Assembly: GCA_016933155.1 (NCBI GenBank)
Contig: JAFGBM010000004.1
Coordinates: 1 to 64,000, forward strand
DNA from: Demequinaceae bacterium
Lineage (GTDB): Bacteria; Actinomycetota; Actinomycetes; Actinomycetales; Demequinaceae
Length of the DNA: 64,000 bases
Direction: 5' to 3'
Shown: positions 39,014-48,844 of the stretch, piece after piece
How the letters are laid out: every line of letters starts with the position of its first letter
Position numbering within the stretch: the first letter of the stretch is position 1
Notes under the pieces: generated by a model
What the model was told of the DNA's origin: nothing
Databases searched by the model: none
What the model saw: the letters and a program-made list of their open reading frames with translations, nothing else
Translations under genes and position numbers: made by a program

Positions 39014-39318
39014 CGGCCTGCCCCCGAAGGAAATGCCGATTCTGAACCTTGATGGATCAAGTCTTGGGATCGTATGTCGCGTCTTCTCGATAGGCACGAT
39101 ACTTGTGGAGCTGCACTTTGTAGTCTCGAAGCCGGCTGAGTCAAGGTACGTTGGCCAGAAGACGAAATCGGACAACATCTTTGGTCCATCCATGATCTGC
39201 GTAGCACTATTTCCCCTGACCTCTGGCGTGTTGAACTTCTGAAAAGCCGCCACCAACCCCAGCCAAGATGCCTACGCCCAGGGACTCAGACCTGAGAAAG
39301 AGAGAGGAACACGACGTC
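39014..39318. other. Gene-free, low-GC spacer
   Basis: 305 bp between pmt and the IMP cyclohydrolase-like gene. GC is visibly lower than elsewhere (runs such as GAACCTTGATGGATCAAG). Open frames on both strands code for no recognisable protein. No tRNA, clear terminator or inverted repeat is seen. It may be the remains of an inserted segment. Confidence 0.55.
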
Positions 39319-40002
39319 ATGAATGTCGTCGACTACGTCTCCAGTTCAGGCTATCCGGGACGGATCATCATCACGGGTCGCGACGCGGCGGGCACCCTCT
39401 TCATTCTCTACACCCTGACCGGTCGCAGCGCAGCTTCCAAACGACGGGAGTTCCGTCCCGCGGTCGACCGCCTTGAGGTCGTCGACACCGAAGGAGGACC
39501 CTTCGATCCGCTTCGGCATTACGCGGCTGCGGTGAGCCAACGCGGATTGGCGGTGATCGGGAACGGCGACCATGTCGTACCACTGTTCTCCAAGATCTCC
39601 GAGGGTCAGGACCCGTACTCCGCTATCGGCCAGATCGACGCGGAGCCGGACCCTCCCATCTGGACTCCACGCATCGGCACGGTCGCTTTCCTGGGCGAGA
39701 GCCCGCGCGCCCATCTAGTGGTGTTTGGCGCGGCGAGGCGTCCGACCGATCCTCCAGCCGGGAACCGCGCAGTCTTGACTGTGAATGCGCTCGAAGCCGG
39801 GCACGCTATTGGGGTGAAAACGTACCGCGGTTCGGTCAACGATGTCGTCGTGGACGGCGTCCCCGTAAAAATGACCCTGAACGGCGAGTGGAGCGACGCG
39901 TTGACGCATCTGCAGCAAGCCATCGACCCCGCCGTCTTCATCGCCAGCGTGGGGACTACGTTGACCCAGGACGGGCTCGCCGCGCCATGGAGTCGCCACT
40001 GA
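39319..40002 (+). CDS. IMP cyclohydrolase-like protein (PurO-like family)
   Basis: 227 residues from an ATG preceded by GAGAGGA; an ATG at 39268 has no ribosome site. The N-terminal stretch SSGYPGRIIITGRDAAGTLFILYTLTGRSAASKRREF matches the IMP cyclohydrolase-like family (archaeal PurO and bacterial homologues), whose Arg and Ser residues in YPGR and GRS are near the active site. Later segments include FDPLRHYAAAV, GNGDHV, and WTPRIGTVAF. Members may close the purine ring (FAICAR to IMP) or act in a related amidohydrolase-type step. Since actinobacteria normally use PurH, this would be a spare or re-purposed copy. Base composition is lower in GC than its neighbours and it sits next to tRNA-Ala. 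Confidence 0.65.
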   Translation: MNVVDYVSSSGYPGRIIITGRDAAGTLFILYTLTGRSAASKRREFRPAVDRLEVVDTEGGPFDPLRHYAAAVSQRGLAVIGNGDHVVPLFSKISEGQDPYSAIGQIDAEPDPPIWTPRIGTVAFLGESPRAHLVVFGAARRPTDPPAGNRAVLTVNALEAGHAIGVKTYRGSVNDVVVDGVPVKMTLNGEWSDALTHLQQAIDPAVFIASVGTTLTQDGLAAPWSRH

Positions 40003-40206: not shown

Positions 40207-41187
40207 TCAGGCGCTCTTCCTCCGGCGCCTCTGGAGGATGTCCTCGAGGGTCTGGGTCGAGGCCTCCGGCTCCACGGCGGGCAGTTCCGGCGTCAACGCG
40301 ATTTCCCGTTCGAGGGCCGCTCGCTTGGCCGCCTGCGTCCCGGCGGCCAGGTCCTCGTCCGAGATCGGCCGTGGGGTCTGGACCTTGGCCGCGGGCTTGA
40401 GGGTGTAGGTCGGGATGGGGAGCATCCCGGGCGACCAGCCGGGGTCCTGCTCCTCCTCGGGGGGGCGGACGGACGGAACGGCGGGCGCAGCCTCCGGGAG
40501 GGGCGCCTGCCTCGTCACAACCTCGATGGCCTGGGTCTCGGCGTCCGACGGACGGACCTCGTGACCAGCCGCCCGCTCCACCGCGAGCCTCTGGAGGGCG
40601 GCCGCGGCCGTCGCGGCGACCGCGACCTCCCGCGCCACGGGAACCAGTCGCTCATCGGCCTTCCGCTGTGCCCGAACCGCCCGGCGACCCGCGATGCCGA
40701 CGCCCCCGACCGCGGTGCTGGCCGCGACGGCCGACCACAACGGCCAGGCCGACGCCGCCACGAAGCCCCAGGCCGTCGATGCGGTGAAGAGGAAGAGCAT
40801 TCCCACGACGGCGCGACGACGAGCCTGAGCGGCCCTCCTGGCCAGCACCCGGTCGTAGTCCCTTTGCATGGCGATCATCTGCCGTCGGGCGACGGTCGCG
40901 GCCCGGTCGAGAGGAGCTGCGGGACGGGACATGACGGTTCCCCCTAGTGCCTTGATGGATGCCTTGGCCTCGCGCGGGGCGAGCCCCTTGGAGCGTTTCT
41001 TCGCCACCGGCCGGACGGGCTCCTGATCGATCCTGGCCGCCGACGAGCGCATCACCTCGAGGTCCGGCCGGAAGCGGCCCTCCGTGCGAACCATCGCGTA
41101 GTGGCCGGTGTCCCGGATCCTGTCGGGCAAGGCGTAGACGAGGACGAGGCCGAGCGCCGCGATCGCCAATAGTCCCACCGGAGGCAT
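40207..41187 (-). CDS. Membrane protein, candidate GlpR/SepX-like divisome factor
   Basis: 326 residues. An N-terminal hydrophobic helix (about 4-20, VGLLAIAALGLVLVYALPD) and two close helices near 128-165 (VVGMLFLFTASTAWGFVAASAWPLWSAVAAS) flank a basic region that contains ARRQMIAMQRDYDRVLARRAAQARRR. The C-terminal 150 residues are hydrophilic, rich in A, E and P, and end RRRRKSA. It lacks enzymatic motifs. The gene is fourth in galU-moeA-rimJ order, the place held by the membrane receptor of the gephyrin-like protein Glp in corynebacteria and by SepX in Streptomyces. By synteny and topology it is a candidate for that family; sequence identity was not tested. Confidence 0.6.
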   Translation of the reverse strand: MPPVGLLAIAALGLVLVYALPDRIRDTGHYAMVRTEGRFRPDLEVMRSSAARIDQEPVRPVAKKRSKGLAPREAKASIKALGGTVMSRPAAPLDRAATVARRQMIAMQRDYDRVLARRAAQARRRAVVGMLFLFTASTAWGFVAASAWPLWSAVAASTAVGGVGIAGRRAVRAQRKADERLVPVAREVAVAATAAAALQRLAVERAAGHEVRPSDAETQAIEVVTRQAPLPEAAPAVPSVRPPEEEQDPGWSPGMLPIPTYTLKPAAKVQTPRPISDEDLAAGTQAAKRAALEREIALTPELPAVEPEASTQTLEDILQRRRRKSA

Positions 41188-41239
41188 ACCCTGACGGTAC
41201 GGCCACGCCAGGGCTCTCCACCGGAGCGCCCTCGGCGTG

Positions 41240-41851
41240 TCAGGCGAGTGACGCCGGGGTGATCCCGTCCTTGAGCATCTCCCAGTACTCCCCGGTTCGT
41301 TTCTCGTCCACCGTCAGGGCGAAAACCCGGTGATCGCGCCATCCGCCGTCGACATACAGGTAGCGCTTCCGGAGCCCCTCGTCCCTGAAACCGAGCTTGT
41401 TCACCACCGTCAGGCTCGCCTGATTCTCCGGACGGGTGGCGATCTCTATTCGATGCAATCCCAGATCGAAGCCCTGCTGGGTGAGGAGCGCCGCGGCGAA
41501 GGGGACGATGCCCCGCCCCGCGTGCTTCTCATCGATCCAATAGCCGAGCGATCCCGTCCGTGCCGAACCCCACTCGATCCCCGTGATGCACACCCGGCCC
41601 ACGAGCTGCCCGTGCACGACGATGACCATGTTGAATGACCGTCCACGCCTCCACAGGAGCCTGTCCCTCCGGACCATGGCCCCGAAGCCCATGCCCCTCG
41701 CCATCCGTCCGGGGGGATCCGTCGCCTCCCACGGGCGCAGCCACGCCCGGTTCCTCTCCCGAAGGTCGAGCCAGGCCGCCTCATCCTTGCGGCGAAGCGG
41801 CCGGACGACCACGTCCCCGCATGCGAGGGCCCTGGGGCGGCTCCTGGTCAT
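41240..41851 (-). CDS. rimJ: GNAT family N-acetyltransferase (RimJ/RimL-like)
   Basis: 203 residues. GNAT strands are recognisable: VVRPLRRKDEAAWLDLRERNRAWLRPWEA at 15-43, FNMVIVVHGQLVGRVCITGI near 73, LGYWIDEKHAGRGIVPFAAALLTQQGFDLGLHRIEIATRPENQASLTVVNKLGF with the acetyl-CoA loop (HAGRG) near 105-155. Close relatives acetylate ribosomal protein N-termini or other small targets. It is in the moeA-like operon (3-bp gap after it). Confidence 0.9.
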   Translation of the reverse strand: MTRSRPRALACGDVVVRPLRRKDEAAWLDLRERNRAWLRPWEATDPPGRMARGMGFGAMVRRDRLLWRRGRSFNMVIVVHGQLVGRVCITGIEWGSARTGSLGYWIDEKHAGRGIVPFAAALLTQQGFDLGLHRIEIATRPENQASLTVVNKLGFRDEGLRKRYLYVDGGWRDHRVFALTVDEKRTGEYWEMLKDGITPASLA

Positions 41852-41854
41852 CGG

Positions 41855-43090
41855 CTAGTCGTCCCAGATCAGGCAAACGACCGGATCGCCCACCGCAACC
41901 TTCGTGGTCTCCTCCGGAATGACGGCGAGGCCGTTGGCCCGGGCGAGGTCGACGAGGGAGGGCTGCCAGGGATGCCCGATGGGCGTTGCCTGCGCATCCC
42001 TGGTCCGGGGGTGCTCGATCTGGACGGGCACGCACTGGACGACCCCGCTCGGAGATTCCCATGCCTTCGTGGCCCGGGCCTTGAACCTCGGCCGCTCCTT
42101 CTCCGCATACGCCGACATGGTGCGGAGGACCGGACGGACGTACATCTCGAAGGCGATGACGGCCGCGGCGGGATGCCCGGGAAGGGCGATGACGGGGGTC
42201 GACGGGCCCTGCCCCCCGGAGGAGATGGCCCCGTGTCCGTGGCGACGCCCCGGCATCATGGCGACGGGCACGACCTCGAAGGCCCCCAGTTCGGCCAGTA
42301 CCTCTGGAAGGGTGTCGCCCACCGCCCCGCTCAGGCCACCCGTCGTGAGGAGGAGGTCGGCCCGCACCAGCTGGTCCTCGATCGTCGTCCGAAGCGCCAT
42401 GCGGTCGTCCCCGACGGCTCCGACCCGGTAGGCCCGTGCCCCCGCCTCGGCCACCATGACCGACAGGGTGTGGGAATTCGACTCCGGCACCCCCGCGCTC
42501 CTGAGCCGGGAACTCGGGTCTCCTAGTTCGTTTCCGACGGAGAGGATGACGACCCGGGGGGTGGGGTGCACGCTCAGCCGTCGGCGGCCCATGGCCGCAG
42601 CGAGGCCCAACTGGCGGGCACCCAGCCTGGTCCCCGCAGGCACCAACACCTGTCCCGCGGAGGCGTCCGTCCCCTGCTCCCGGACATTGGCCCCCTGCCG
42701 CGAGGCTGCGGTGATCGCGACCTTCGCCACGCCGCCGTCGGTCGCCCCGATGGGCACGACGGTGTCGGCGTTGATGGGAATGGGGGCTCCGGAGACGATC
42801 CTGGCGGCCGTCCGAGGCACGTGACGACGGGGGCCTCGGGCCTCCCAGGCGACATCGTGGGACACCGCGAGGCTGATGGGGGTTGCGGCTGTCGCCTTGG
42901 CCACGTCTGCCGCGGCAACGGCGTAGCCGTCGCAGGTGGCGACGGCTACGGGCGGGATGGGGCCCTCGGATACGAGGTCCTCCGCCAGGATGGATCCGGC
43001 CGAGTCTGCGACGAGCACCTCGATGGCGGGGATGCGTTCGATGCCCTCGAGCAGCGCGGCCCGATACTGGGCGAGGGTGAGCTTCTCCAC
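41855..43090 (-). CDS. MoeA/gephyrin-like protein, candidate Glp
   Basis: 411 residues from a GTG that begins one base after galU stops. The MoeA fold is clear: ATCDGYAV near 52 (usually MDGYAV), RIVSGAPIPINADTVVPIG near 96-115, LSVGNELGDP near 185 (usually TGDEL), the central TTGGLSGAVGDT (usually SGGxSVGxxD) near 248, and LPGHPAAAVIAFEMYVRPVL near 303 (usually LPGNPVA). Several molybdopterin-active positions deviate, and no moa, mog or molybdate genes are visible. Genuine MoeA inserts Mo into molybdopterin; in corynebacteria a MoeA-like protein in this same operon (Glp) instead binds FtsZ and a membrane receptor. The local gene order favours Glp; both readings are possible. Confidence 0.8.
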   Translation of the reverse strand: MEKLTLAQYRAALLEGIERIPAIEVLVADSAGSILAEDLVSEGPIPPVAVATCDGYAVAAADVAKATAATPISLAVSHDVAWEARGPRRHVPRTAARIVSGAPIPINADTVVPIGATDGGVAKVAITAASRQGANVREQGTDASAGQVLVPAGTRLGARQLGLAAAMGRRRLSVHPTPRVVILSVGNELGDPSSRLRSAGVPESNSHTLSVMVAEAGARAYRVGAVGDDRMALRTTIEDQLVRADLLLTTGGLSGAVGDTLPEVLAELGAFEVVPVAMMPGRRHGHGAISSGGQGPSTPVIALPGHPAAAVIAFEMYVRPVLRTMSAYAEKERPRFKARATKAWESPSGVVQCVPVQIEHPRTRDAQATPIGHPWQPSLVDLARANGLAVIPEETTKVAVGDPVVCLIWDD

Positions 43091-44035
43091 CTAGTCCTCC
43101 TTCCCGTCCGAAACGAAAGCATCCAGCCACTTACGAAATGCGGGCCCGAGGTCCGGCCGATCCACGGCGATCGTCACGACCGCCTTGAGGTATTCCAGTT
43201 TGTCACCCGTGTCGTATCGGCGTCCCCTGAAGACCAGCCCGAGCACCCCGCCCCCTTCGTCGACCGGAACCCGGGTGAGCCGATCGATGGCATCCGTCAA
43301 CTGGGTCTCCCCGTTCCTCCCGGGAGGAGTCTCCCGGATGGCGTCGAAGACGGCTGGCGTGAAGAGGTACCGGCCGATCACCGCGAGGTTGCTGTATTCC
43401 TCCCCCCGTGCGGGCTTCTCGTTCAGCCTCAACAGCCGGTGGACCTCGGCGTCGTCGGGTATCCGTGGATCGCGATCCGCACCGGGAATGTCGTCGAGGG
43501 ACAGGGGGAAGGGATCCACCGAGCCGTAGACACCGAGAAGGACGGAGGGCACCTCCATGAGGAGGACGACCGACATCCCCGTGCACTCATGGAGGGCGAT
43601 CATGGTGGGCAGCGCGGGATCCCGTTCGTCACAGAAGTCGTCGCCGAGCATGACGACGAACGGTTCCTTTCCCACGTACTCCTCCGCGACCCCGACGGCC
43701 TTCCCGAGCCCATCGGGCACGTCCTGCACCAAGTACGTGAGAGGGCCGAGCCCCGACGTCCGTCGAACCTCGTCCAGGAAATCCTTCTCGCCCTTCTCCT
43801 TGAGGTGGGCTTCCAGAACGGCGTCGGGGGCGAAATGCTCGGCCACCGCCTCCTTCCCGCCGGTCAGGACAAGGGCAACATCCGACAACCCCGCCGCCAA
43901 GGCCTCCTCGACGACGTACTGGACCGACGGCCGATCAATCACCGGGATCAGTTCCTTGGGAATGGCCTTGCTTGCGGGAAGGAAGCGGGTTCCACGTCCC
44001 GCCGCCGGAATCACGGCTTTGCGCACCTGTGCCAT
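43091..44035 (-). CDS. galU: UTP-glucose-1-phosphate uridylyltransferase
   Basis: 314 residues, full length. Nucleotide-binding motif KAVIPAAGRGTRFLPASKAIPKELIPVIDRPSVQYVVEEALAAG at 6-50, GLGKAVGVAEEYVGKEPFVVMLGDDF near 108-134 (substrate Asp) and NLAVIGRYLFTPAVF near 222 and EFLYG-like GDKLEYLKAVV near 285. It produces UDP-glucose, the substrate of the Ugd encoded at 51671-53002. It leads the operon with the MoeA-like, RimJ and membrane-protein genes, and is divergent from the 5-FCL gene. Confidence 0.95.
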   Translation of the reverse strand: MAQVRKAVIPAAGRGTRFLPASKAIPKELIPVIDRPSVQYVVEEALAAGLSDVALVLTGGKEAVAEHFAPDAVLEAHLKEKGEKDFLDEVRRTSGLGPLTYLVQDVPDGLGKAVGVAEEYVGKEPFVVMLGDDFCDERDPALPTMIALHECTGMSVVLLMEVPSVLLGVYGSVDPFPLSLDDIPGADRDPRIPDDAEVHRLLRLNEKPARGEEYSNLAVIGRYLFTPAVFDAIRETPPGRNGETQLTDAIDRLTRVPVDEGGGVLGLVFRGRRYDTGDKLEYLKAVVTIAVDRPDLGPAFRKWLDAFVSDGKED

Positions 44036-44110: not shown

Positions 44111-44743
44111 ATGCCCTCCTCCGCAACGTCTCCGGCCTGGGTGGATGAGGAGGCCGTCGACGATGCCAAGGCCATCCTGCGGACGGCCGCCGTCGCCACC
44201 CGATCCCAGCGAAGCCAAAGCAAGCATGAGGAGACCGCCCAGGCCATCGCCGATCACCTTCTCGCCCTGCCCGAACTCCGGGTCGCGACATGCGTGTCGA
44301 TCTACGCCTCGAGGCCGACGGAGCCGGGGACCCTCCCGACCATCGAGGCCCTGGACGCTCTGGGGATCCGGGTCCTGCTGCCCGTCCTCGGCGAAGGGCT
44401 CCAGAGGTGCTGGGGAGAGTTCCGGGGGACCGATGATCTGGTCCAGCGAGCCCCGGGGCGGCCGCCGGAACCCTCCGGAGACCACCTTCCCCCGTCCGCG
44501 ATCGCCGATGCCGACGTCATCGTGGCCCCCGCCCTCGCCATCGACGGGGTCGGCACGCGCCTGGGCCAAGGGGGCGGCTGGTACGACCGTGCCTTGAAGA
44601 GGGCCCGGCCCGATACCCTCCTGATCGCAGCCGTCTTCGCCGACGAGGTCCACCTGGACGGAAAGCCCCTGCCTCGGGCGACCCACGACGTCCCCGTGCA
44701 TGCGGTGGTCACCCCCAAAGGCGTGACCCGGTTCACCCGCTAG
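44111..44743 (+). CDS. 5-formyltetrahydrofolate cyclo-ligase
   Basis: 210 residues from ATG. The N-terminal KxxxR-type helix is AKAILRTAAVATRSQRS near 20, then CVSIYASRPTEPGTLPTIEALDALGIRVLLPV near 61, DADVIVAPALAIDGVGTRLGQGGGWYDRAL near 138-167 with the conserved ATP/Mg GxGGGYYD-type motif (GQGGGWYD), and VHAVVTP near the end. It converts 5-formyl-THF to 5,10-methenyl-THF with ATP. It overlaps no neighbour; fmdB follows 5 bp later. Confidence 0.94.
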   Translation: MPSSATSPAWVDEEAVDDAKAILRTAAVATRSQRSQSKHEETAQAIADHLLALPELRVATCVSIYASRPTEPGTLPTIEALDALGIRVLLPVLGEGLQRCWGEFRGTDDLVQRAPGRPPEPSGDHLPPSAIADADVIVAPALAIDGVGTRLGQGGGWYDRALKRARPDTLLIAAVFADEVHLDGKPLPRATHDVPVHAVVTPKGVTRFTR

Positions 44744-44950: not shown

Positions 44951-47900
44951 CTACCAGTGCGGGGGCCGGTCGCGTCGGATCTCGTCGTCCCGGCTCCCCG
45001 ACCCGGGATCCCCCCAACCCACGTCCGTATCGTCGACCGACCGGGAGGGGAGGATGCCACCCGACGGAGGCTCCGGCATCGGAGGGCCAGGGGGGGCCGG
45101 TTCGGGCTCGGGCGCCGGGTCCGGTTCGGGCTCGGGCCCGGGTTCCGATTCGGGCTCGGGTTCCGGTTCGGGCGGTTTCGTCGGGACGCCGAACACGGTC
45201 CTGATCTGATCCGCGGCCGCCTCCGGATCCATGAAGACATCGAGGGTGAAGAGCGGCACCACCACCCACCCGAGCGCCTCAAGTCGCTTCCTCTGCCACC
45301 TGACCTGATCCCGAAGGCTCGTGCCCTGCTCCGGGGGCGCCTCGTCTGTCACGATCGCGACCGAAGGTTCACCCCCGATGGCCCCCACGACGAGGGGAAT
45401 AGTCTCTCCCCCCGCGCCATAGCGCTGGAAAACACTGAGCCCGTTCCCCAGCCTCCTCGCCAGGTCGGCGAAGAGCCAATCCCCCTCCTCGCTCCTCGGC
45501 GGGGGCGGACCGGCGTCGGCCAGGGCCACGAGGTCGGCGAAGGCGTCCACCCCATGTCCCAGCTTCCCCTGTTTCGCCGCCCAGCCCAGGTAGTCGAGGG
45601 GCAGGGCGGTGACGACCACGACGTCCCGTTTGGCCGCGACCAGGGCTTGCCTGAGCGCCTGTGCCCCGAGCGGGGAGGAGAGCACTCCGAGCCTTTCGGG
45701 GTATTCCCCCCGGGTGTCGGGACCGTAGCCGAGGGTCAGGACGACGACATCGGCCTCGGCCCCCGCGGCCCTTCCCAGAACGAGCACCGGAACCTCCCGA
45801 TGCGCCCCGTCGTCCCAATCCTCGAGCGCCTCCCTGACCTGGGCGGCGTGGGCGTCGTTTGCGGCAATGACGAGGCGATCCAACCCCTTGAGGGAGGCGA
45901 CCTTGACGCAGGTGGCCGCGACCTCAGCCTGGGTCGTCTCCACCCCGATCAATCCCGGGGCGGGCATCGACACCGCGTCAACGGTGACGAGTTCGAGCGA
46001 ACCCCCGATCCCAGCCGCTGGAAGGGATTCGAGCTCCGAGCCGTATCCGTACTCCGAAAGCACTGCCGTCACGCGGGGATCCCGCGGCTCCGGCAGGGCA
46101 TGGAGGATGAGGTCGGGCAGGATCTCCTTCAGGCCAGGGATCGCCCCCCTCGTGGCCGCATGCGCGTCACCGAGCGCGACGACCTGGACGGAACGGGAGA
46201 TCGCGGGGACAAGTTCGGCGAAGGACGTCGACTCGATCCCGACCAATACGACGGTGTCGACGACCCGCTCCGGCGGGATGAGGTCGGAAGCCTGCTCGGC
46301 CGAGCATAGGACGACCGGCCGAAGCGCCCCGACGAGTTCGGGAAAACGAGCCCAGAGATCCCTGAATGGCCCGTCCCCGCCCTCGACCAAGGTGGCGAAC
46401 ATGTCCCGGGAGTCATCCTGTCTCTGGGCGATGGCTGAGCGCCGGCGTTCGCCGACGGCCCTCAGGAGCGGATGCACCCTGCATTCCGCGAACTCGCGAT
46501 CGCTCGCCAGGAACCGTTCTGCGGCGCGTCCGATCGCGCCATACCTGGCAAGTGCGGGAGCCTCGGCCAGGATCGCCTCGAAGGCGGACGCCCACCAGGC
46601 GAATTCGATCTCGGCGGCCGCCGCGGATGGGGGAACGGACCTCGATGCCAGCTCGTCGAAGAGGACCTCGAGCCCGAGTCCCAGAAGGTGTTCCTGCGTA
46701 TCCCGTACCTCGGACTCCTCGGGGGGCAGTTTCCGGACCTCCGTCAACGATTCGAGGGCGGCCTTGAGCTCCTTCCAGGACCTCTCTGCAAGGCGGCCGC
46801 GGCCCGTCACCGCCTCGACGACGGAGGACAGCCTCGACCAGAGGGCCCAGGCCTCCGCGTTGTGTGCATCGTAGGCGTCGAGGCCGTCCGGCACCCGGGG
46901 CCAACCTCCGCCGCCGCAGTGGGCTCGCCATTTCACCGCCTGGCCGTGGGCCCTCACGAGCGCCTCGTGCAGGCCCTCGGCCGTTCGACCGGGACGCAGC
47001 AACTCCTCGGCCTGACGCCTCAGGGCCTTGGCCTCACGCTTCGGCAAGGTGGCGGCCAGGCTCGACCCCTCCGGCGCGGTCGCCGCGATGAGGTCGGCGA
47101 GGGCTCCTTGGAAGACCGCGGGAGTGAAGCTCTCGAGCGTTGTCCGAAGCTCGTCGAAGAGCCTCACCTGTTCTGTCCATGCCTGAAGCGACCCGGCCTC
47201 GTCGATGCCCGCCTCCATCGCGGCCTCGGTTGCCGCCTCCCTGAGCCGGGGAAGATGGCGAAGCAGGAACGTCGTGAGCATGTCATCCAACTCCGCCCCC
47301 CGCTGCTCGTCGAGGACCGTTCCCTCCCACCAGCGGCGGGAGGGCTCGTCCTCGGGGGCATCCGGGGCGGTGGCCGACGATTCCGGCAGGGGTGTTCCGG
47401 GATCCGCTTCGTTTCCGGGACCCCCGGCGTTCTCGGAACCCTCAAGCCTCCTGCCCCCGATGGTCTCCTCGGCGAAGAGCGCCCCCTGGGTGTCGGCGGC
47501 CACCCTCGCCTCATACTCCCGGGCGGCGGCTGCCGCCACCACCTCGATGCCCCGCTCGACGATGTACTGGACCGCCGTCTCCGCGATCCTGACGGGGGTC
47601 GACGGAGGCTCAAGAGCCGATGTCAGGCGGACGATCTCTTGGACGGCACGATAGGCGCTCACCCCCCAGGGGGCGCGTCGGCGGTGCAGCTCTTCGACCC
47701 TTTCGCGAAGCACGGACCGGGTCTCGATGAGCCGTTCCCCCGCAACCCGGAGCGCCGCCTCGTCCATGGGTGGAGTCGAGGACGTCATCGACTCGAGGAG
47801 CCTCGTGCGGGCGGTGGAGTTCCAGTGGTTGTCCGTCCCGCTCACGTAGAGGTCGCCCGCACCCACGGCGTCGAGGGTGTACGCCACGGACTCCACCGGA

Positions 47901-48844
47901 TGTGCCGTCCCGCCGACAACGGCGACCACGCGTCCCGAGGCGGCCCCGTCCGCGGCGATGGCCGCAGCCATCCTGATCGAGTCCGCGCCCGGCGGGACCT
48001 GGATGAAGAGGTTCCGCCCCGTGGCGATCACGTCGAGGGCGGCGAACTCGACATCGTCCAGGTCGCCGAGGCCCCTCTCCGCGAAGGGATCCCTGTCCCC
48101 CGGGGTCGGGGCCGGGAGCGGGCCTCCGAGTTCCTCGCGGATGCTTCGATCCCCGGCGGCCGCCGCGAGGACGGTGTTGGAGGCGATGAGGTGGCTGCAT
48201 TCGTCCAGGTCGTCGAGCAGCCTCTGCTCGGGATCGTCGAAGGATCCGAGGAGGAGAACCTCCTCGACGACGAGGTCTTCCCCGAAGGCCTCCGTCAGCC
48301 CGCGGATCTCATCCCAGAGGGGACGGGGGTCGAACTGAGGCCCGGCGAGCGTGGCCCGGACCGTCGCATCGAAGGATCGCTCCGGGAGCCTGGACCGGAG
48401 CTCGGCCGCCACCACCGGGTTCAGAGCCACCGCGTGGTGGAGGGTGACCTGGATGTCGGACCCCCGGGACGCTTCGAACGTCACCGGCCGCACCAAGAGG
48501 GGCATGACGTGAAGAGAGCCGTCGTCCGACCACGAGACGCTTCCCACGGCGAGCCCCCCGGTCGCGACTCCCGCCGTCAGGCGTGCAGCCTCGGCCTGCT
48601 CGTGTATCATCCGCGCGATCGAGAGGGCCGGGGCCTGGGCCTCCGGGTCCCGGAAGAGGCTGGACACCAGGGTCGGGCGTTCCGCGAACAGCTGCGCGAG
48701 ACCTCCGGGATGCGCGCCGATGATGTCGAGGACCATGGACCTGGAGAGGTCCCGGAGGGGTGACGGCGTCGCCTCCCCCTCCAGGTCCCGACGCCAGTCG
48801 CGAAGGGCGTCGGCCACAAGGGCGCGCCCGATATAGTCCACCAC
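44951..48844 (-). CDS. Motif-dead SF1 helicase-like protein with nuclease-like C-terminal domain
   Basis: 1297 residues. The overall layout follows the DNA2-like/DUF4011-type helicases: RecA-like start with ALDVIATGRNLFIQVPPGADSIRMAAAI near 270-300, a long helical insert, a second RecA-like half near 850-1090 (VDTVVLVGIESTSFAELVPAISRSVQVVALGDAHAA; DVVVLTLGYGPDTRG), and a restriction-endonuclease-like domain with RWQRKRLEALGWVVVPLFTLDVFMDPEAA near 1175-1205, as in the MTES_1575/DUF559-type nuclease. All expected catalytic sites are altered: GPPGTGKS reads VPPGADSI, DEAS reads GIES, GDPKQ reads GDAHA. The tail is a Pro/Glu repeat (about 1217-1250). Function unknown; a structural or regulatory DNA-binding role is possible. 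It is the longest gene in the window and lies downstream-convergent to fmdB. Confidence 0.8.
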   Translation of the reverse strand: MVDYIGRALVADALRDWRRDLEGEATPSPLRDLSRSMVLDIIGAHPGGLAQLFAERPTLVSSLFRDPEAQAPALSIARMIHEQAEAARLTAGVATGGLAVGSVSWSDDGSLHVMPLLVRPVTFEASRGSDIQVTLHHAVALNPVVAAELRSRLPERSFDATVRATLAGPQFDPRPLWDEIRGLTEAFGEDLVVEEVLLLGSFDDPEQRLLDDLDECSHLIASNTVLAAAAGDRSIREELGGPLPAPTPGDRDPFAERGLGDLDDVEFAALDVIATGRNLFIQVPPGADSIRMAAAIAADGAASGRVVAVVGGTAHPVESVAYTLDAVGAGDLYVSGTDNHWNSTARTRLLESMTSSTPPMDEAALRVAGERLIETRSVLRERVEELHRRRAPWGVSAYRAVQEIVRLTSALEPPSTPVRIAETAVQYIVERGIEVVAAAAAREYEARVAADTQGALFAEETIGGRRLEGSENAGGPGNEADPGTPLPESSATAPDAPEDEPSRRWWEGTVLDEQRGAELDDMLTTFLLRHLPRLREAATEAAMEAGIDEAGSLQAWTEQVRLFDELRTTLESFTPAVFQGALADLIAATAPEGSSLAATLPKREAKALRRQAEELLRPGRTAEGLHEALVRAHGQAVKWRAHCGGGGWPRVPDGLDAYDAHNAEAWALWSRLSSVVEAVTGRGRLAERSWKELKAALESLTEVRKLPPEESEVRDTQEHLLGLGLEVLFDELASRSVPPSAAAAEIEFAWWASAFEAILAEAPALARYGAIGRAAERFLASDREFAECRVHPLLRAVGERRRSAIAQRQDDSRDMFATLVEGGDGPFRDLWARFPELVGALRPVVLCSAEQASDLIPPERVVDTVVLVGIESTSFAELVPAISRSVQVVALGDAHAATRGAIPGLKEILPDLILHALPEPRDPRVTAVLSEYGYGSELESLPAAGIGGSLELVTVDAVSMPAPGLIGVETTQAEVAATCVKVASLKGLDRLVIAANDAHAAQVREALEDWDDGAHREVPVLVLGRAAGAEADVVVLTLGYGPDTRGEYPERLGVLSSPLGAQALRQALVAAKRDVVVVTALPLDYLGWAAKQGKLGHGVDAFADLVALADAGPPPPRSEEGDWLFADLARRLGNGLSVFQRYGAGGETIPLVVGAIGGEPSVAIVTDEAPPEQGTSLRDQVRWQRKRLEALGWVVVPLFTLDVFMDPEAAADQIRTVFGVPTKPPEPEPEPESEPGPEPEPDPAPEPEPAPPGPPMPEPPSGGILPSRSVDDTDVGWGDPGSGSRDDEIRRDRPPHW
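45097..45174. repeat. Pro/Glu-encoding tandem repeat near the end of the helicase-like gene
   Basis: Imperfect units of GGTTCGGGCTCGGG repeated about four times. On the minus strand they encode PEPEPEPESEPGPEPEPDP. Low-complexity tails of this kind vary in length between strains by replication slippage. Confidence 0.8.

Follow-up and report, generated by a model that had tools for sequence, protein, structure and literature searches.

A MoeA-like protein encoded in a Demequinaceae genome raises the question of whether it serves molybdenum cofactor (Moco) synthesis or cell division. Its gene lies in a stretch of 64,000 nucleotides (the window; positions 1 to 64,000 of contig JAFGBM010000004.1, assembly GCA_016933155.1), in a run of four genes that an original prediction, made from the sequence of the window, described as a probable Glp/GlpR-like division module in the galU operon. 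Glp is an actinobacterial homologue of MoeA that has been recruited to cell division. On comparative grounds, we consider it quite probable that the MoeA-like protein is a diverged Glp ortholog, that the product of the fourth gene is its membrane receptor, GlpR (SepX), and that the two form a scaffold of division. We favor this reading because the Moco genes that were searched for were not found and because the neighboring membrane protein resembles GlpR. All four open reading frames (ORFs) were confirmed on the minus strand at 40207-44035, separated by intergenic gaps of 0, 3, and 52 bases:

41855-43090, minus strand: glp-like gene, Glp-clade MoeA homologue of 411 amino acids with a GTG start (NCBIfam, PDB, tree)
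40207-41187, minus strand: glpR/sepX-like gene, membrane protein of 326 amino acids (NF050099, tblastn, iterative hidden Markov model, helical model)
43091-44035, minus strand: galU, UTP-glucose-1-phosphate uridylyltransferase (TIGR01099, 248 bits, E 1e-73, below the cut-off of 326.8; NTP_transferase, 74 bits)
41240-41851, minus strand: rimJ-like GNAT acetyltransferase gene between glp and glpR (Acetyltransf_3, 61.6 bits; PRK10809, 65.7 bits, below the cut-off of 190)

The MoeA-like protein groups with Glp

Pfam searches of the MoeA-like protein returned MoeA_N, MoCF_biosynth, and MoeA_C. Its best NCBIfam match was NF045515 Glp_gephyrin (365.7 bits, compared to 297 bits for MoeA_actino), and its best sequence match in the PDB was Glp of Corynebacterium glutamicum (8bve/8bvf). 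We compared it with the MoeA-family genes of 37 Demequinaceae genomes, its own included, of which 31 contain MoaC and six do not (G000, G001, G002, G007, G009, and G035). Each of the 31 MoaC-bearing genomes gave at least two MoeA-family matches, one of them beside moaC, and each of the six MoaC-less genomes gave exactly one, the glpR-linked copy. Identity of the window protein to the 36 other glpR-linked copies ranges from 34 to 67% (tblastn; at least 44.9% for 34 of them), and its identity to the moaC-linked MoeAs from 32 to 38%.

Phylogeny separated the two kinds of gene. A 96-row tree, which took the 31 moaC-linked MoeAs and the 37 glpR-linked copies of this family (f1), as did the active-site scoring described below, placed the glpR-linked copies in one group (support 100/99) and the moaC-linked MoeAs in another (95/98). 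A 51-row group around the 37 includes C. glutamicum Glp (100/99), whose row was flagged as a long branch. In a class-wide tree, which took 10 of each Demequinaceae set and left out loci L088 and L093, 42 GlpR-linked genes and 22 others lay on the two sides of one branch (99/94), and C. glutamicum Glp paired with the gene of locus L210 (100/100). The gene of locus L076, assigned to no group (no GlpR was found there), fell within the GlpR-linked side.

NCBIfam score alone was rejected as a criterion for telling the paralogs apart, because a moaC-linked MoeA can outscore the glpR-linked copy. The Glp model NF045515 does rate the moaC-linked MoeA higher in several Demequina; in G003, for example, the moaC-linked gene (C6:968678-969865) scores 391 bits versus 317 bits for the glpR-linked one (C6:2307981-2309180). 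Assignments were therefore made from tree and synteny, and naming by NF045515 could swap MoeA and Glp in several Demequina. In G032, the moaC-linked MoeA (C1:1994356-1995542) matches as two pieces in different frames, perhaps reflecting a frameshift or a sequencing error.

The Moco markers searched for are absent and most of the scored active site is changed

The host assembly comprises 1,885,200 bases in 15 contigs and is 99.83% complete. Profile searches of the whole assembly detected no MoaC, no MoaA C-terminal domain, and no xanthine dehydrogenase (XDH)-type domain (MoCoBD_1). The single PF00994 (MoCF-domain) match in the genome is the window protein, as is the single NF045515 match, and the sole PF00384 protein is NuoG, an identification made by eye from the sequence and from nuoF- and nuoH-like neighbors. 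As controls, the profiles matched in 13 (PF00994), 11 (MoaC), 11 (MoaA), 5 (MoCoBD_1), and 11 (PF00384) of 14 reference genomes. The original observation that no Moco genes are visible thus extends to the whole genome for the markers that were searched for, which did not include MoaE or the sulfite-oxidase family. The prediction had proposed this search for moaA, moaC, and molybdoenzymes, and had named a complete Moco pathway in a genome lacking any further moeA as an outcome that would contradict it. NuoG apart, we found no MoaC, MoaA, second MoCF domain, or XDH-type domain; the genome holds no other moeA, and the tested markers of the pathway are missing.

For an active-site score, we took 19 positions where the residue agrees with E. 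coli MoeA and hardly varies among moaC-linked MoeAs. Because the sites were chosen as conserved there, the moaC-linked group scores high by construction (17-19 of 19 in the 31 Demequinaceae proteins); the choice of sites does not create the contrast among the remaining groups. Scores of the glpR-linked copies are 5-10 in the 31 genomes with MoaC and 6-9 in the six without it. C. glutamicum Glp scores 11 and the window protein 7, which departs from the canonical MoeA active site at 12 of the 19 positions (F53, N55, S56, M58, T100, T185, D187, G256, N300, V302, S371, and H372; E. coli numbering). The altered sites were correctly recognized in the original prediction: the sequences that it quoted (CDGYAV, SVGNEL, GLSGAVGD, and LPGHPAA) all occur in the translation, and CDGYAV retains the conserved Asp.

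The seven scored positions that are kept (D59, D142, E188, D228, D259, P298, and P301), together with the retained R137, are what would be expected if the protein were still a molybdotransferase, or another nucleotide-dependent enzyme, acting on scavenged pterin. We regard this possibility as very unlikely, given the replacement of T100, N300, S371, H372, M58, and other residues and the absence, NuoG apart and within the limits of the search given above, of Moco-synthesis markers and molybdoenzyme families. An ordinary MoeA was rejected on the same two grounds, missing Moco markers and a changed active site. The warning that a MoeA annotation may mislead here is borne out by the placement of the protein in the Glp clade, by the adjoining GlpR/SepX ortholog, and by the changes across most of the active site.

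The fourth gene encodes a GlpR-like membrane protein

A Pfam search of the membrane protein encoded by the fourth gene gave no domain match, and NF050099 SepX_GlpR_2 matched it with 36 bits (E 7e-9). When the window GlpR was used as a tblastn query, a relative was detected downstream of glp in all 36 other Demequinaceae loci, including those of G001 and G029, where NF050099 gave no match; no GlpR was detected by tblastn outside the Demequinaceae. There, an iterative hidden Markov model detects a gene at the place of GlpR; because the model was grown on the loci that it then scored, position, not score, is the real evidence outside the family. The weak NF050099 match and the synteny in 36 of 36 loci identify the fourth gene product as the GlpR/SepX ortholog that had been proposed from its position and topology.

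By tblastn, the glp-like and glpR-like genes occur together in each of the 36 Demequinaceae loci sampled besides that of the window, and the rimJ-like gene lies between them in 35; this recurrence implies that the grouping of the pair is not due to chance. By contrast, galU was detected in 4 of the 36 other stretches (at most 5 kb per side, some ending at a contig edge), so that the term galU operon is apt for the window itself and not for most of the family.

Hydropathy analysis of the window GlpR gave two clear transmembrane segments (TM1 and TM2) and a weak third one, and the structural model has helices at residues 4-52, 92-145, and 150-206. The first loop is basic (isoelectric point, pI, 11.65) and the tail acidic (pI 5.60), part of these regions being modeled as helix. 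Most of the other loci encode a GlpR with a basic first loop; across all of them, the pI of the tail ranges from about 4.5 to 11.8. The tail contains a conserved motif:

40405-40437, minus strand: tail motif W-x-P-x5-P-x-Y (WSPGMLPIPTY, GlpR residues 251-261; alignment, motif scan)

P253, P259, and Y261 of this motif are invariant in 41 aligned GlpR proteins. Among 5621 ORFs of the loci, the motif was found in 61, all of them GlpR: that of the window, those of the 36 other Demequinaceae loci, and those of 24 of 31 other loci. The motif is lacking at L070, L073 (cut by a contig end), L201, L202, L208, L210, and L212. Three of these (L208, L210, and L212) have a first loop of pI below 6; L197, with a first-loop pI of 6.3, has the motif. 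Our guess is that it is a putative Glp-binding peptide; neither the report on C. glutamicum Glp/GlpR (PMC10522489) nor that on Streptomyces SepX (PMC8748795) uses the word "motif" in its main text.

Hinge, fold, and division partners

Two regions of the Glp-like protein bear on a division role:

42554-42568, minus strand: HPTPR, hinge 2 between domains I and III, of the Glp-type P-x-P-R form (alignment)
41858-42118, minus strand: domain IV, the location of the FtsZ-binding hairpin in C. glutamicum (alignment; PMC10522489)

Pro at C. glutamicum position 182 is present in all 37 Demequinaceae Glp proteins, compared to 8 of 31 moaC-linked MoeAs and 6 of 9 single-copy genes (see below). Pro at positions 19/20, our guess for hinge 1, is common in Glp and MoeA alike and is therefore not discriminating here. 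An AlphaFold monomer of the window protein (mean predicted local distance difference test score, pLDDT, 94.7) confirmed the MoeA four-domain fold. In structural comparison, 8bve was the top match (VIA Z 38.4), tied within 1 with Cnx1E (38.2).

The presumed partners are encoded in the genome. FtsZ (402 bits), SepF (84 bits), and a DivIVA-domain protein of 191 amino acids lie together on contig 13, the last matching its domain model with 53 bits (cut-off 22) and the Wag31 model with 83 bits (below the cut-off of 260). In the crystal of the C. glutamicum complex, L435, V437, P438, and F440 of the FtsZ tail are described as contacting Glp (PMC10522489); the host FtsZ ends in LDIPDFLKR, with L, I, P, and F in the corresponding positions as judged by eye. 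As reported in the same paper, C. glutamicum Glp binds FtsZ and the membrane receptor GlpR in experiments and ties the Z-ring to DivIVA.

By analogy with C. glutamicum, the Glp dimer of this organism would no longer insert molybdenum and would act as a cytoplasmic scaffold, docking on membrane GlpR, possibly through the tail motif, and on the C-terminal peptide of FtsZ. Such docking would tie the Z-ring to DivIVA. An ancestor of the lineage would have lost Moco, dropped the moaC-linked MoeA, and kept the glpR-linked copy, on our proposal because the use of that copy is structural. We infer a septation role in this organism from orthology, and the suggestion that the operon may serve septation gains support from orthology and genome context.

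Copy number and retention of Glp-clade genes in the class

In a class sample of 118 genomes (its own included), all 118 gave a MoeA-family match, and MoaC was present in 101 and absent from 17, the latter from eight families. All 17 MoaC-less genomes keep a MoeA-family gene, and 10 of them gave exactly one match. Among the other seven, the second match is short in five (model positions 185-270 or less) and partial in one (G116); the remaining genome (G119) has a C-terminal piece of a second MoeA-family gene (C47:57409-57990) in addition to a full-length Glp-like gene, perhaps reflecting a recent loss. Loci were read in nine of the 17 MoaC-less genomes, and all nine hold glp, rimJ, and glpR.

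Exactly one MoeA-family match was found in 33 of the 101 MoaC-bearing genomes; it lies within 500 bases of moaC in all 33 and exceeds the Glp cut-off in 28. We read 13 single-copy loci from both samples (this one and a sample of 59 relatives), leaving 26 of the 33 single-copy class genomes unread. All 13 genes score 17-19 of 19 at the active site, and the trees place all of them on the Glp side except that of L082. Within the fetched stretches, rimJ was found at 12 of these loci and glpR at 11, L076 and L082 being without glpR. Single-copy Glp-clade genes with a canonical site beside moaC, rimJ, and glpR occur at L074, L075, L077-L080, L083, L207-L209, and L213. These single canonical copies do not fit the statement in the literature that bacteria with Glp possess two copies, and the single-copy Glp-clade proteins look like candidates for both the MoeA and the Glp jobs. 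Moreover, four glpR-linked genes of genomes with two or more matches (loci L206, L212, L214, and L215) keep 17-18 of 19 positions, which implies that a second copy is not always paired with active-site decay.

Five small-genome loci (L196-L199 of family f38 and L200 of family f48) encode a glpR-linked protein with 0 of 100 domain II positions:

L196:4848-5798, domain-II-less glpR-linked gene
L197:4986-5924, domain-II-less glpR-linked gene
L198:4986-5933, domain-II-less glpR-linked gene
L199:4989-5900, domain-II-less glpR-linked gene
L200:4839-5783, domain-II-less glpR-linked gene

The rimJ and glpR neighbors of these genes remain. In all 10 sampled f38 genomes, a MoeA-family match starts at model position 138 or later; eight of the 10 are without MoaC, and the two with MoaC have a second match beyond the matches listed. 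The open-licence literature gave no report of Glp-only genomes or of domain-II-less Glp, which supplementary tables may show, and no paper on Demequina and Moco.

We put forward tentatively, as a possibility that we judge slightly on the doubtful side of even, that Glp did not begin as an enzyme-dead duplicate. In many Actinomycetes, a sole Glp-clade protein with a full active site, its gene lying between galU and moaC-rimJ-glpR, would make Moco and serve the divisome, the site would decay only after a second MoeA or Moco loss, and small genomes (family f38 and G161) would shed domain II; the window would then be an end point of this path, at which the scaffold outlasts Moco.

Observations that weigh against a Glp role

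Several observations weigh against the assignment of the pair as Glp and GlpR. Neither protein reaches the cut-off of its model: the window Glp-like protein scores 365.7 bits against the 475 bits of NF045515, which is reached by none of the 37 Demequinaceae, and the GlpR-like protein 36 bits against the 150 bits of NF050099, which is reached by none of the 59 relatives and none of the 14 control genomes, C. glutamicum being the sole control with any match. The charge order of the window GlpR is the reverse of that in C. glutamicum, where the first and second intrinsically disordered regions (IDR1 and IDR2) have pI values of 4.05 and 10.87. The monomer model of the window protein superposes better on Cnx1E (root-mean-square deviation 3.1) than on the open C. 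glutamicum Glp 8bve_A (5.3); this model, a single chain only, does not reproduce the open hinge of C. glutamicum Glp. The FtsZ-loop residues M361 and Y369 of C. glutamicum are not conserved, the window protein having E and A there in an alignment that is gappy across the loop. Finally, in the sample of 59 relatives, 10 genomes are without MoaC; the six Demequinaceae among them keep a MoeA-family gene, and the four from other families (G039, G045, G055, and G057) have none. Three of these (G045, G055, and G057) still match the GlpR model weakly, which implies that the Glp/GlpR pair is not always kept together.

The loop signature was shown on Corynebacteriales in the published work (PMC10522489). 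In 20 class loci, we found M361 in one (L210) and Y369 in five. Either this signature is, as it seems, mostly a feature of that part of the clade that contains C. glutamicum, or other members bind FtsZ in another way. The same counts would also fit a GlpR-docked scaffold that does not act on FtsZ and organizes something else at the membrane, such as a galU-linked supply of envelope precursors or the dynamin-type partners of SepX. The two-hybrid partner of Streptomyces SepX is described as DynB and no other divisome component tested (PMC8748795), consistent with such a role. We consider it unlikely nonetheless, as SepX is reported in the same article to co-localize with FtsZ at septa and the Glp contacts are kept in the tail of the host FtsZ.

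The four MoaC-less genomes without a MoeA-family gene, and the largely changed active site of the window protein, could also indicate a decaying relic, that is, a functionless MoeA homologue on its way out after a recent loss of Moco. We judge this quite unlikely. The ORF is intact and its predicted fold confident, and the same glpR-linked paralog, never the moaC-linked one, survives in all six MoaC-less Demequinaceae. A copy is likewise retained in MoaC-less genomes of eight families, Demequinaceae included, in the class sample, and in the 31 Demequinaceae with both copies, the glpR-linked one is already altered despite the presence of MoaC. Retention of a Glp-type gene after Moco loss is common, not universal. 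Returning to the Glp assignment, the window protein is probably a Glp-clade variant that works like Glp, not a proven member by every defining feature.

Comparison with known systems

The closest known system is Glp/GlpR of C. glutamicum (Martinez et al., 2023, PMC10522489; 8bve, 8bvf), which shares with the window pair the clade, the membrane partner, the P-x-P-R hinge, and the FtsZ tail contacts. As given in that paper, glp and glpR are separated by one gene in C. glutamicum as well (Cgl0883 and Cgl0885). The two differ in M361/Y369, absent from the window protein, in the reversed charge order of GlpR, and in the tail motif, which is present in the window GlpR and lacking in that of L210, the row next to C. 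glutamicum in the Glp tree. Moreover, C. glutamicum also has moeA1 and moeA3, whereas the host genome has no other MoeA and none of the Moco markers searched for. Streptomyces SepX (Bush et al., 2022, PMC8748795) differs in its two-hybrid partner, DynB, and in its low sequence identity, and "moeA" does not appear in the main text of that report. At locus L206, from a large-genome family (f34) presumed to be Streptomyces, the gene order is galU-glp-moaC-rimJ-glpR, and the GlpR tail motif is present.

MoeA itself (E. coli 1fc5/1g8l and the moaC-linked Demequina proteins) has the same four-domain fold and several of the same acidic active-site residues; the window protein differs from it in its 32-38% identity to the moaC-linked proteins, in 12 of 19 scored positions, and in the lack of Moco markers. 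Gephyrin and Cnx1E are highly similar in structure, and the analogy of a MoeA fold that serves as a scaffold between a membrane receptor and the cytoskeleton is drawn in PMC10522489. Unlike the window protein, they are eukaryotic, fused to MogA, and still enzymes, and they are described as having been recruited independently of Glp (PMC11733289).

Neighboring genes

Three further genes flank the four-gene run:

44168-44743, plus strand: 5-formyltetrahydrofolate cyclo-ligase, divergent, upstream of galU (PF01812, 96.8 bits; residues 535-717 of the frame from 42566)
44951-48844, minus strand: protein of 1297 amino acids with a Pro-Glu-rich tail and a weak C-terminal REase_MTES_1575 match (26 bits, below the cut-off of 38.2)
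39268-40002, plus strand: IMP-cyclohydrolase-like protein (PF07826, 57.6 bits, above the cut-off of 28.1)

The PF07826 family (PurO) is best known from archaea. The order of the four genes and the divergent cyclo-ligase gene is one that we take to be that around Rv0992c-Rv0996 of M. tuberculosis.

Implications

In genomes such as this one, a MoeA annotation is no proof of molybdenum metabolism. MoaC-less genomes that retain glp next to glpR are natural knock-outs and offer clean hosts for work on a role in division, free of a Moco background. Conversely, the single-copy Glp-clade genomes with a canonical active site make the question of repurposing versus moonlighting directly testable. If the dual role proposed for them is true, a single Glp-clade MoeA would be the bacterial counterpart of moonlighting gephyrin.

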